Below are positions 17,141-57,403 of a stretch of DNA of 64,000 nucleotides, piece by piece. Each line of letters opens with the position of its first letter. The stretch's first letter is position 1. The translations under genes were made by a program, and so were the position numbers. Source of the DNA: Bacteroidota bacterium (lineage in GTDB: Bacteria > Bacteroidota > Bacteroidia > UBA8524); the NCBI GenBank assembly GCA_008933805.1, contig WBUH01000009.1, positions 62,001 through 126,000 of the forward strand, read 5' to 3'. Below the pieces are notes generated by a model. The model worked only from the letters and a program-made list of their open reading frames with translations, made no database searches and was not told the DNA's origin.

Positions 17141-17410
17141 AAAGATTGTCTAAAACAGTCTAAAAGCGTGTAAAATCAAGGTTTTACACGCTTTTTTTTG
17201 TTCTTCATTTTCTAAAAAAGTCTATAAAAGTCTATGGGTTTGGTTTCTAAGGGGGTTTCTTTTTTTTAGAGGCCAAAAAAGAAACCAAGCAAGTAGACTG
17301 ATTTAGACTATTATAGACTGAAAATCAATTAATTAGATATTGTTTTTTCGCTTGGTTTCCGTATTTTTGTAAAACATTTAAAGGGGGGCACAACTTAATT
17401 TTTGTGCCAA
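17141..17410. promoter_or_regulatory. Integrase-upstream region with phased AGTCTA repeats (attL-like)
   Basis: This 270-bp region has no gene. It carries GTCTAAAA at 17148 and 17158, AGTCTA at 17219 and 17229, and the inverted form TAGACT at 17294, 17304 and 17314. Within each group the copies are spaced exactly 10 bp. A second family, TTGGTTTC (17240-17247, 17352-17359) and its inverse (17281-17288), is interleaved with it. The pattern resembles arm-type binding sites of tyrosine integrases next to the core site in the tRNA 3' end. This is inference; only the repeats are seen. Confidence 0.6.
17165..17198 (+). terminator. Intrinsic terminator of tRNA-Ser
   Basis: A perfect 11-bp stem (AGCGTGTAAAA / TTTTACACGCT, 6-nt loop) is followed by eight T residues. 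Confidence 0.88.
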
Positions 17411-51414: not shown

Positions 51415-52295
51415 ATGATACAAAAAGCACAATATGCTTGTGTAACACTATTGCTATTGCTGATTTCTTTCAACGCCTTTGCCCAGCCGGGCTGTATTGG
51501 TTTTGCTGCTGATTTTGAGTTTGGGGATGATACCGCCGATTTATTTGGAAAAACGTTATTTACTAATACTTCTACATGGACGGACAGTACTACACAATAC
51601 CGTTGGAGTTTTGGAGACGGGGACACTGTGTACACCAAGGTTCCCAATCACAGTTACTTTAAGCAAGGTACTTATAACGTATGTTTATTGGCCTATAACC
51701 TAAAACAGAACGGCGATACCACTTGCAGGGATACCACTTGCAAACAGATTACTGTGCGGTTTGACTCCTGTGTAACTCCGGTTGCAGATATTATTCGTGC
51801 TGTTGACCCAGATAGCTGTTATAAAATCTCTTTTGCTACTAACTCAATCGGACATTATTATTATTGGTTTTATGGTGATGGAGATGTGGATAGTGCTGTG
51901 CAAGTTACAAAACACACTTATGATTCAGCAGGTACATATAATGTCTGTTTAGTTGTTTTTAACATTTACGGCAATAATCAAATATGTGCAGATACTGCTT
52001 GTGATAGCATTAAGGTTTGCCTGTCAATGGGAGTTACTACCCCTCATTCAACTCAAGTTTCAATTTACCCCAACCCCGTAAACGATATATTGGTGGCGAT
52101 ATATTGGTGGTTGATATTCCCGATATGGATGAGGCGACAATGGTTAGCATTACAGATGTTACCGGCAGAGTTCAGCTGTGTAAAACAATACAAGGCACAG
52201 AGACCATTCAGGTCAATAGCCTATCGCAAGGGATATACTATATAACTGTTGAAAGAGAAGGAGTAATTCTTCTTCGCCAAAGAATAGTAAAATAG
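51415..52295 (+). pseudogene. PKD-domain secreted protein with T9SS sorting domain, frameshifted
   Basis: A signal peptide (to AFAQ) precedes two PKD domains (about residues 50-110 with YRWSFGDGDTVYTKVPNHSY, and 130-185 with YYWFYGDGDVDSAVQVTKH), then SIYPNPVNDIL, the start of a type-A T9SS C-terminal sorting domain. A perfect 14-bp tandem duplication at 52083-52110 shifts the frame, and the first frame stops at 52245 in unrelated residues. The rest of the sorting domain (VVDIPDMDEATMVSITDVTG and, near the end, GIYYITVEREG) is intact in another frame, ending at 52295. Removing one copy of the 14-mer restores one continuous protein. Confidence 0.88.
52083..52110 (+). repeat. 14-bp perfect tandem duplication in sorting domain
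   Basis: CGATATATTGGTGG occurs twice head to tail, at 52083-52096 and 52097-52110. Its length is not a multiple of three, so it breaks the frame of the PKD gene. Confidence 0.97.
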
Positions 52296-53692: not shown

Positions 53693-53732
53693 TTTATAAT
53701 CTTTCTAAATAATGACCGTAAGGGTACATTTG
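53693..53732 (+). promoter_or_regulatory. Promoter and palindromic operator of heme-uptake operon
   Basis: TTTATAA-TCT-TTCTAAA (53693-53709) differs from the perfect palindrome at 58483 in one arm base. The exact -7 box TACATTTG (53725-53732) lies 15 nt downstream and 27 nt before the ATG. Confidence 0.55.
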
Positions 53733-53759
53733 CGGCATACTAAAAGTTATCGTATAGAG

Positions 53760-55058
53760 ATGAACAAACTACAAAAGACCATCTGTACATTATTCGCAAT
53801 TATTCCATTTATGAACGTTTCAGCGCAAATTGCCGATTCAGTTTTAATGGGTGCCGGTTATGGCAATGATGTTTATTACAGTTTTGCAAGCGGCGAAGTT
53901 AAAAAGGTAGCCAACAACACTTGGGACCTTGCTTTCCGCACAGGCTTCCGCACCGATGCTATTTTTATTAATTCGGTAAGCTCATCAACTGCACAACGCA
54001 GCACCAAATTGTATTTGTATCCAAAAGGTGATAAAACTGCATGGAGCACTTTTGATACTTCGGGCTGGAAAGGTTGGTTAGAATACCAAAACACTGATAC
54101 TTCTTGGGAGTTTGGTGCTTTTAACCGTGCTGCAGGAACTTTCCCTGATTTTTCTTGGGGAATTTACAATCCCGTGACCAAGGTTGTTGAGGGAGATTCG
54201 TTATACCTGTTAGAAATCACTAACGGATCTAACAAAGTGTACAAGAAGTTGTTTATAATGGATAAAAACTTTGGCGTATGGCATTTTAAATACGCTGATG
54301 TTGATGGAACTAACGAAGTAGTTGATTCTATCGTAGCCAGCAACGGCAATGCAAAATTGTTGGATTACTATTCAATAATTGATGGTGCTGATGTAGCTCA
54401 CGAGCCTGATAGCGTTAAAGATTGGGATTTGTTGTTTACTCGTTACCACGAGTGGATTTCAATGCCTGCACCCGGAAGCTACTACCCTGTAATGGGTGTT
54501 CTTACTAACAAAGGCGTTAAAGTAGCTGAGAAAAGGAGCATTGATAAATTAACGTATGATGTAGCCAATCTAACAGCAGGTGATTACAAAGAGTTTAGAA
54601 ACATTATCGGTTCTGACTGGAAATTCTTTGATAACAACACTTTTTCTTGGGTGTTGATTGATTCATTGGCTTATTTCGTTCAATTGCAAAACGGTTCAGT
54701 ATGGAAAATATACTTTACAGCATTTGGCGGTACAGGCAATGGTAAATCAGTATTTAACAAAACCAAAGTACAACCGGGTCTTTCAGTAAACCCTGCTGCA
54801 ACTGTAGCTTCATTCGGTGTATATCCAAACCCTGCTGCTACTTCAGTTAGCGTTGTGTTTGAAAACCGTGCAAACTCAGTGAGCAATACATTGAAAATTT
54901 ATGATATGGCCGGTAAAGTAGTAGCCACACACACGTTAGAAAACGCTCCCGGTTTTTATACCAGCGAAGTAAACATTGAGCAATTACCTGCCGGTGTTTA
55001 TGTGATGAGCATTGAAAACGGTGGTTTCAACATTACCCAAAAATTGATTAAAAACTAA
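53760..55058 (+). CDS. HmuY-like protein with T9SS C-terminal sorting domain
   Basis: The ATG at 53760 gives a signal peptide ending at NVSAQ. The 432-residue protein has two halves with the HmuY beta-sheet pattern: NNTWDLAFRTG near residue 44 and VKDWDLLFTRYHEW near residue 220. The stretch WKIYFTAF precedes the linker. A type-A T9SS sorting domain (about 350-432: FGVYPNPAATSVSV... YVMSIENGGFNITQKLIKN) directs it to the surface or medium. It likely captures heme for the adjacent TonB receptor. The lipoprotein paralogue is two genes downstream. Confidence 0.82.
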   Translation: MNKLQKTICTLFAIIPFMNVSAQIADSVLMGAGYGNDVYYSFASGEVKKVANNTWDLAFRTGFRTDAIFINSVSSSTAQRSTKLYLYPKGDKTAWSTFDTSGWKGWLEYQNTDTSWEFGAFNRAAGTFPDFSWGIYNPVTKVVEGDSLYLLEITNGSNKVYKKLFIMDKNFGVWHFKYADVDGTNEVVDSIVASNGNAKLLDYYSIIDGADVAHEPDSVKDWDLLFTRYHEWISMPAPGSYYPVMGVLTNKGVKVAEKRSIDKLTYDVANLTAGDYKEFRNIIGSDWKFFDNNTFSWVLIDSLAYFVQLQNGSVWKIYFTAFGGTGNGKSVFNKTKVQPGLSVNPAATVASFGVYPNPAATSVSVVFENRANSVSNTLKIYDMAGKVVATHTLENAPGFYTSEVNIEQLPAGVYVMSIENGGFNITQKLIKN

Positions 55059-55096: not shown

Positions 55097-57403
55097 ATGA
55101 CAACACCCAAACTTATAACAAGCTATGTTTTAAAACACGCTGCAAAGCGTTTGGGAACGGGAGTAATGGTACTTATACTACTGGCCTTTTGCACAACAGT
55201 TGCAAAAGGCCAGTTTTTTATACAAATAGGCGACACAGCGTTGAAACCTGTCGATTTTGCATCGGTAGGAGTGGTGCCTATATCAGCTGAAAAGGGATTA
55301 GAGTATAACAGAGCCAAATTGTACTATACAGATGCTAAAGGTATGGTGCAGCTAGATTTTGGCGGAAAATGTTTACTGAAAATACAAGCCGAAGGTTTTA
55401 AGGCTTTTGAAGACAGTGTTGAAATTGTTGCAGGAAAAACCCTGAAAATTAAACTGTATCCATTTGAGGCTGAAGTGAGTGAAGTAGTGGTTACAGGCGT
55501 TTTTGAACCTACGCACATTGATAAATCCATATCGAAAATTAGGGTGATTGATATGAAACGGATAGAGGGGCAGGGTGCGGTGAATTTGAACGATGTATTA
55601 AGTAATGAATTGAACATACGCCTGAAACGTGATAATATTTTGGGCAGTAGCATGAGCCTGCAAGGAATTGGCGGGCAGAATGTGAAAATACTGATTGACG
55701 GCGTGCCGATGATTGGCCGCATGGATGGTAATATTGACCTAGGGCAAATAAACCTGAACAATATTGAAAAGATTGAAATTGTAGAGGGGCCGATGAGTGT
55801 GATGTACGGGACGGATGCGTTGGGCGGGGTGATTAATTTGATTACGAAGAAAACTACTAAGAATAGTATAGAAGGGAATGTGAACAGCTATTACGAAAGC
55901 GCAGGGCAATATAACCTTGACGGACGTGTGGCGTTTAGCACCCCTAAAAAAACAAGTGTACAGGTATCGGGCGGGCGTAACTTTTTTGACGGTTACGAAG
56001 AGTTAGGTACCTACAAACGTGCGCAAGCATGGAAACCCAAAGAACAATACTTTGCCGATGTAATTGTAGGGTTTAGTATTAAAAATACCACCCACAGGTT
56101 ACAATCAACCTTTTTTGATGAGTTGCTGCTAAACAAAGGCGAACCTGTTGTTGGTCCTTACAGCGTGTATGCGTTTGATAACTATTTTTATACACGCAGG
56201 TTTAATAACTCGTTATTCTCAAATATTAAGCTTAAAAACGGCGGGCATATACAGTTAATTAACTCATACTCGTGGTTCCGTCGTCACAACATACAAATGC
56301 GTAAAAACTTAGTTACGCTAGAAAATGTACAAACACAAGGCTCTACCGACCACGATACTTCTACGTTTGATTTATGGCTTTCGCGTGGTATCTACACCGT
56401 TGGCTGGGGTAAAAATGCCACTGTGCAAGTGGGGTATGATATTAATATTGAAACCGGTACAGGCAGAAGGATAGAAGGTACCAGCCAATCTATTGGTGAT
56501 TATGCCGGATATACAACGGTTGAGTATAAACCGCTTAGGCGTTTAGTGATACGCCCCGGTGTACGTGCGTCATACAACACCAAATACGGTGCGCCAATAA
56601 CCCCGTCATTCAATACCAAATACGACATAAACAAAAATCTTAGTGTGCGTGCTTCGTATGCAAGGGGTTTCAGAGCACCTTCATTAAAAGAGTTGAGCTT
56701 GTTTTTTGTTGATGTGAACCATAACATACAACCCAATGATAACCTGAAAGCTGAAATTTCAGACAACTTCAACGCATCGTTTTTATATACCCGCACAGTA
56801 GGCGAAAATAGCAGCATACGTTTTGAACCCTCTTTCTTTTACAACGATATCCGCAATATGATATCACTTGCAGTGGTTGACCCTGCTAAACAGCTATACA
56901 GCTATGTGAATATAGGAGCATTTACCAATGCCGGTACCAACCTTAATACAGAGTTCAAAACCAAACATATTAGCCTGCAATTAGGGGCATCATACATTGC
57001 CAATAAAAACCTGATAAGCGGGCCTAATGTTTCAAAATACAGTACTACCCAAGAGTACAAAGCAAACGTTACTTATACCGTTCCCGTGTCAAAAACTTCC
57101 ATCAGTTTATTCTATAAATACAACGGAAGAGTACCCGGTTATATGTTAGATGCAGGGGGAAATGTCATACAAACTTACATTCAAGACTATTCTATGGCCG
57201 ATTTATCGGTAGCACAGTCATTTTTAGGTCAAAGAGTGACCCTGGTCATAGGCAGTCGTAACATTTTTAACGTAATTCGCATCAGTTATAACGCACCAAC
57301 CGGAGGAGCACATAGCGGGGGAGGTAACTCAATGGGAATAGGAATGGGGCGTACAATTTTTACAAACATTAAGATTCACTTATTCAAGCAGGACAAACGA
57401 TAA
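55097..57403 (+). CDS. TonB-dependent receptor, HmuR-like (heme uptake)
   Basis: The 768-residue receptor has a long signal region ending near VAKGQ, a carboxypeptidase-like beta domain (about 45-125), then the plug (EVVVTGVFEPTHIDKSISKI, KILIDGVPMIGRMDG, VEGPMSVMYGTDALGGVINLI) and a barrel. SKEL-like GFRAPSLKELSLFF and NPNDNLKAE-type QPNDNLKAEISDNF are shared with heme and siderophore receptors. It lies between two HmuY-like genes and overlaps the second by 1 nt. A terminator-like hairpin lies in the first codons. Confidence 0.88.
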   Translation: MTTPKLITSYVLKHAAKRLGTGVMVLILLAFCTTVAKGQFFIQIGDTALKPVDFASVGVVPISAEKGLEYNRAKLYYTDAKGMVQLDFGGKCLLKIQAEGFKAFEDSVEIVAGKTLKIKLYPFEAEVSEVVVTGVFEPTHIDKSISKIRVIDMKRIEGQGAVNLNDVLSNELNIRLKRDNILGSSMSLQGIGGQNVKILIDGVPMIGRMDGNIDLGQINLNNIEKIEIVEGPMSVMYGTDALGGVINLITKKTTKNSIEGNVNSYYESAGQYNLDGRVAFSTPKKTSVQVSGGRNFFDGYEELGTYKRAQAWKPKEQYFADVIVGFSIKNTTHRLQSTFFDELLLNKGEPVVGPYSVYAFDNYFYTRRFNNSLFSNIKLKNGGHIQLINSYSWFRRHNIQMRKNLVTLENVQTQGSTDHDTSTFDLWLSRGIYTVGWGKNATVQVGYDINIETGTGRRIEGTSQSIGDYAGYTTVEYKPLRRLVIRPGVRASYNTKYGAPITPSFNTKYDINKNLSVRASYARGFRAPSLKELSLFFVDVNHNIQPNDNLKAEISDNFNASFLYTRTVGENSSIRFEPSFFYNDIRNMISLAVVDPAKQLYSYVNIGAFTNAGTNLNTEFKTKHISLQLGASYIANKNLISGPNVSKYSTTQEYKANVTYTVPVSKTSISLFYKYNGRVPGYMLDAGGNVIQTYIQDYSMADLSVAQSFLGQRVTLVIGSRNIFNVIRISYNAPTGGAHSGGGNSMGIGMGRTIFTNIKIHLFKQDKR
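55180..55220 (+). promoter_or_regulatory. Intragenic terminator-like hairpin (putative attenuator)
   Basis: ACTGGCCTTTTGCA (55180-55193) and TGCAAAAGGCCAGT (55201-55214) form a perfect 14-bp stem with a 7-nt loop, followed at once by six T (55214-55219). It lies within the signal-peptide codons (residues about 29-41) of the TonB receptor. The structure meets all criteria of an intrinsic terminator. Confidence 0.7.

Follow-up and report, generated by a model that had tools for sequence, protein, structure and literature searches.

A perfect 14-bp tandem duplication places the T9SS sorting domain of a Bacteroidota PKD protein in two reading frames

A gene for a putative T9SS cargo in a Bacteroidota bacterium carries the 14-bp unit CGATATATTGGTGG doubled head to tail, in perfect match, at positions 52083-52110 (+) of the window (the whole stretch of 64,000 nucleotides that was analysed). 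We consider it fairly probable that this is a recent spontaneous tandem duplication, which would have created a loss-of-sorting allele of a lineage-specific T9SS cargo, revertible at low frequency and with no evolved switch behind it.

The duplication and the gene that it divides

Copy 1 of the repeat (52083-52096, + strand) is read in the frame of the upstream PKD domains and encodes the residues DILV of the sorting motif, while copy 2 (52097-52110, + strand) shifts translation off the sorting-domain frame. The copy number is exactly 2.0; a multi-copy tract of several units, of the hypermutable kind, is absent from the site. Copy 1 is preceded by A, whereas the unit ends in G, and copy 2 is followed by T, whereas the unit begins with C, so that neither flank extends the match and there is no flanking microhomology. 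In Markov randomisations of the window with unchanged dinucleotide content, the mean number of perfect tandems was 1.1, 0.2, 0.1 and 0.05 at periods 8, 9, 10 and 11, respectively, and no perfect tandems of period 12-16 were found. The 14-bp repeat is therefore the result of a duplication event or of an assembly error and not of composition. The sequence-only reading of this DNA, which had pointed out a perfect tandem duplication at 52083-52110, is thus borne out, the repeat being far above chance. The same reading had placed the repeat right after the motif YPNPVNDIL, which has to be corrected, since the DIL of the motif and the next valine are already encoded by copy 1.

The open reading frame that contains the repeat (51415-52245, + strand) encodes 276 amino acids and comprises a signal-peptide-like start, two PKD domains, YPNPVNDIL and about 50 out-of-frame residues. 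The start of the product, MIQKAQYACVTLLLLLISFNAFAQ, resembles a Sec signal peptide by eye, and the PKD_4 family (PF18911) matches the product in two stretches (E 1e-17). The rest of the T9SS type A sorting domain (CTD), 64 amino acids and a stop, ending in LLRQRIVK, lies in another frame at 52101-52295 (+ strand), as indicated by TIGR04183, PF18962 and the codon score. The two pieces were searched apart. The piece at 52101-52295 scored 34.2 bits against TIGR04183 (cut-off 23) and 30.6 bits against PF18962 (cut-off 27), whereas the 276-aa product matched neither model, and its residues 3′ of copy 2 matched nothing. As in other T9SS type A cargos (TIGR04183/PF18962), there is a C-terminal domain with a YPNP motif and a match above the curated cut-off; it differs from an ordinary cargo of this type in that parts of the domain lie in two different reading frames, the CTD piece being above the TIGR04183 cut-off but off the PKD frame as assembled.

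The length of the added unit, 14 bp, is not divisible by three; the ribosome would therefore read about 50 wrong residues after copy 2 and stop at 52245. The break in the sorting domain coincides exactly with the repeat, and the continuing frame is open to 52295, in agreement with the earlier proposal that a frame shift removes the T9SS signal. At the level of the sequence, the in-frame sorting domain is lost. No stop or lesion other than the 14-bp duplication was found in the gene. In this it resembles the pneumococcal type, in which a perfect tandem duplication puts a gene that is intact in other respects out of frame.

Relatives and the state of the downstream frame

Searches of the order, of 395 genomes from the class and of the genome contig database found no ortholog of the gene and no second allele. 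Protein matches in the order and class were to generic PKD domains (about 30-44% identity), and DNA matches in the 395 class genomes were short and chance-like (25 to 71 bases). A search for a congener via the neighbouring M1 peptidase returned none, the relatives retrieved showing at most 62% identity. By these comparisons, the gene appears to be specific to the host lineage, and being lineage-restricted, with no ortholog, it may be dispensable. With no relative that has the gene, the age of the lesion and the ancestral state have to be read from the frame alone.

The downstream frame has no stop for 64 codons; among off-frame windows of 61 codons in the same genome, only 1.0% are free of stops. 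Its codon-usage score, 0.094 bits per codon, falls at the 5.5th percentile among real coding windows and exceeds 99.9% of off-frame windows, 0.09% of which match it. The sequence-only reading had named codon decay in this frame as counter-evidence to switching; decay was not detectable and the coding signature has been kept. It follows that the lesion is young or that the gene is usually in a state other than the assembled one. A good coding state downstream is equally expected from a switch.

Sorting domains and tandem repeats in the host genome

The host genome (4.29 Mb, 40 contigs, completeness 97.67%), possibly a metagenome bin, encodes a T9SS, with matches to SprA (2495 bits), a PorU-type sortase (1319 bits) and five PorP-family matches. 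At least 150 CTD matches were found in this genome and, among the matches listed, nearly all sit in long open frames. The frame with the CTD of the gene under study has 93 codons; the next shortest among the matches listed has 96 codons and is on C8 (L067:10302-10568), while on C1 a CTD frame of 121 codons forms a small ORF without interruption. The region of the C8 match (L067:10302-10771, G000:C8) holds a CTD remnant, in the 96-codon frame, beside a short frame that contains DPNDK, and looks like what is left of a disrupted T9SS cargo; the scan for perfect tandems with a period of at least 10 found none there. Within the window, positions 53712-55058 encode an HmuY-domain protein whose T9SS sorting domain is intact; its gene adjoins a TonB-dependent-receptor-like gene at 55097-57403.

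A census of tandem repeats covered 1,596,553 bases of the host genome (about 37% of it), in stretches mostly around CTD genes. Perfect tandems with a period of at least 10 numbered 18. Of these, 12 have a period of at least 12, and in 10 of the 12 the period is divisible by three, which would be expected if frame-breaking tandems were purged; another of these 12, L108, lies in low-complexity, apparently non-coding DNA. The 14-bp repeat is the only perfect tandem of period 12 or more in the 1,596,553 bases that breaks a reading frame. The same scan in other Bacteroidota yielded 18 tandems in 1,027,968 bases around M1 peptidase genes, and thus no enrichment in the host. A genome-wide mutator was rejected as an explanation, since the density of tandems is not above that of other Bacteroidota; topoisomerase I is present.

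At the shorter period of 10 bp, a perfect tandem of 2.5 copies (L070:16242-16266) splits a second large T9SS cargo, on C2. This cargo (L070:14184-18021, G000:C2, minus strand) appears as frames of 604 and 709 amino acids on either side of the tandem. A paralog of its downstream part on C11 (L077) is 48% identical and has an uninterrupted frame; no alignment extends across the split. Both frame-breaking cases (two of two) are thus in T9SS cargos, in a sample in which cargo genes are overrepresented and make up about a fifth of the DNA, as estimated from CTD frame lengths. That both survivors are in cargo genes is at most suggestive. Core genes are probably more essential than cargo genes, whose loss is probably better tolerated, and the data fit a view in which frame-breaking duplications arise everywhere and are mostly purged.

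The other out-of-frame tandems were examined as candidate members of a family of switches and rejected: those at window position 17216 and in L108 are in non-coding DNA, that in L101 is inside a gene that is intact, and those in L064 and L140 lie at the starts of genes. At L140:7427-7458 (G000:C17), the start codon of a small lipoprotein-like gene recurs within an 11-bp unit, CATGAAAAAGC, that is present in 2.9 copies; the last ATG alone is in frame, and the earlier ones read M-K-K-P-stop. A longer repeat, 93 bp made up of a 21-bp unit, CGAAGGACATCCTGAGCTTGT, was seen at L071:6414-6506 (G000:C3).

Origin of the duplication

Three readings deserve comparison above all, and we rank a recent loss-of-sorting mutation first, as the probable one, an artefact second and a selected switch third, the latter two both being improbable. 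According to the preferred reading, a head-to-tail duplication of 14 bp, arising independently of existing repeats, would have hit the sorting domain of a cargo with a Sec signal, two PKD domains and a type A CTD. From what is known of T9SS sorting, the product would be expected to reach the periplasm through Sec and to be retained there, since it would not be taken up by the T9SS, and so would be neither secreted nor attached. The allele is probably a loss-of-function variant, from which slippage could remove one copy at low frequency; being revertible is not the same as being regulated or selected. Short perfect tandem duplications are an ordinary class of mutation in this host. Duplications of this kind have been described in E. 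coli topA R168C, in which de novo tandem duplications of 2-19 bp arise independently of existing repeats (PMC6954433); like the one described here, they are short, run head to tail and have no need of pre-existing repeats, and the lack of microhomology at our site fits such an origin. In contrast to topA R168C, which is a mutator strain, the host has a repeat density that is not raised relative to other Bacteroidota.

It is possible, though we think it rather doubtful, that the duplication is an artefact of assembly or consensus, or a minority variant that the assembler settled on, and that the real gene has one copy. Two copies with no microhomology are what an unmerged 14-base overlap of two pieces could leave, and both the undamaged downstream frame and the nature of the assembly (40 contigs, incomplete, possibly a metagenome bin) agree with this. 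However, there is no run of N or contig edge close by, the site being about 114 kb into a 184-kb contig; the adjoining genes are intact; and the tandem in the C2 cargo has 2.5 copies, as biological slippage would leave.

A reversible contingency switch, in which the one-copy allele would yield a sorted protein, on the surface or secreted, and the two-copy allele a periplasmic form, with selection for population heterogeneity, seems unlikely to us. Slippage between perfect 14-bp copies is physically possible, the out-of-frame CTD keeps its coding signature and the C2 cargo is likewise split by a tandem. In addition, spontaneous tandem duplications in the pneumococcal capsule genes cap3A, cap8E and tts are reported to give reversible phase variation (Waite 2001, 2003, as cited in PMC4243769 and PMC4022640). 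The pneumococcal duplications resemble ours in being short, head to tail and inside an ORF, with function lost and reversion possible in principle; they differ in that switching was measured there, whereas here there is one sequence, from another phylum, and a secretion signal takes the place of a capsule-synthesis gene. According to PMC4022640, reversion was about 1e-5 or less for insertions of up to 9 bp, so that rates for short units are low. Simple-sequence contingency loci such as kpsC (7A/6A, PMC13410964) also shift frame by loss or gain of a unit, but they consist of homopolymer or short-unit tracts, whereas our site has one extra 14-bp copy and no tract. The on/off switch proposed by the sequence-only reading gained no positive support: the site has just two copies, without a tract, microhomology, slippery heptamer or unusual structure, tandems are not enriched genome-wide, and almost all other CTDs, among the matches listed, are in long frames.

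Two further mechanisms were discarded. Programmed -1 ribosomal frameshifting finds no slippery heptamer of the form X XXY YYZ in 52014-52245, and the frame overlap is free of homopolymers of at least six A/T or at least five G/C. A DNA hairpin driving slippage was rejected because the fold is no better than that of shuffled sequences (z-score 0.04). A broader form of the switch, in which T9SS cargos of the lineage pass between sorted and periplasmic states by gain or loss of single short tandem duplications, with the present gene and the C2 cargo as two members, we regard as very improbable; the titles and opening lines of abstracts in the literature on the T9SS and phase variation contained no mention of sorting-domain switching. 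Slightly less probable still is a gene that is dead for good, or a truncated but functional protein favoured by the loss of sorting, with a downstream frame too young to have decayed. The restriction of the gene to one lineage and its possible dispensability are in keeping with this, but the duplication is the sole lesion and the downstream frame has acquired no stop.

As found, the gene is an example of a short duplication that breaks a reading frame. It also calls for caution in annotation, since a T9SS cargo may be overlooked when its sorting domain sits in another frame. If sequencing reads held both alleles, it would mean that Bacteroidota could toggle between secretion and retention of a protein via the sorting tag alone.
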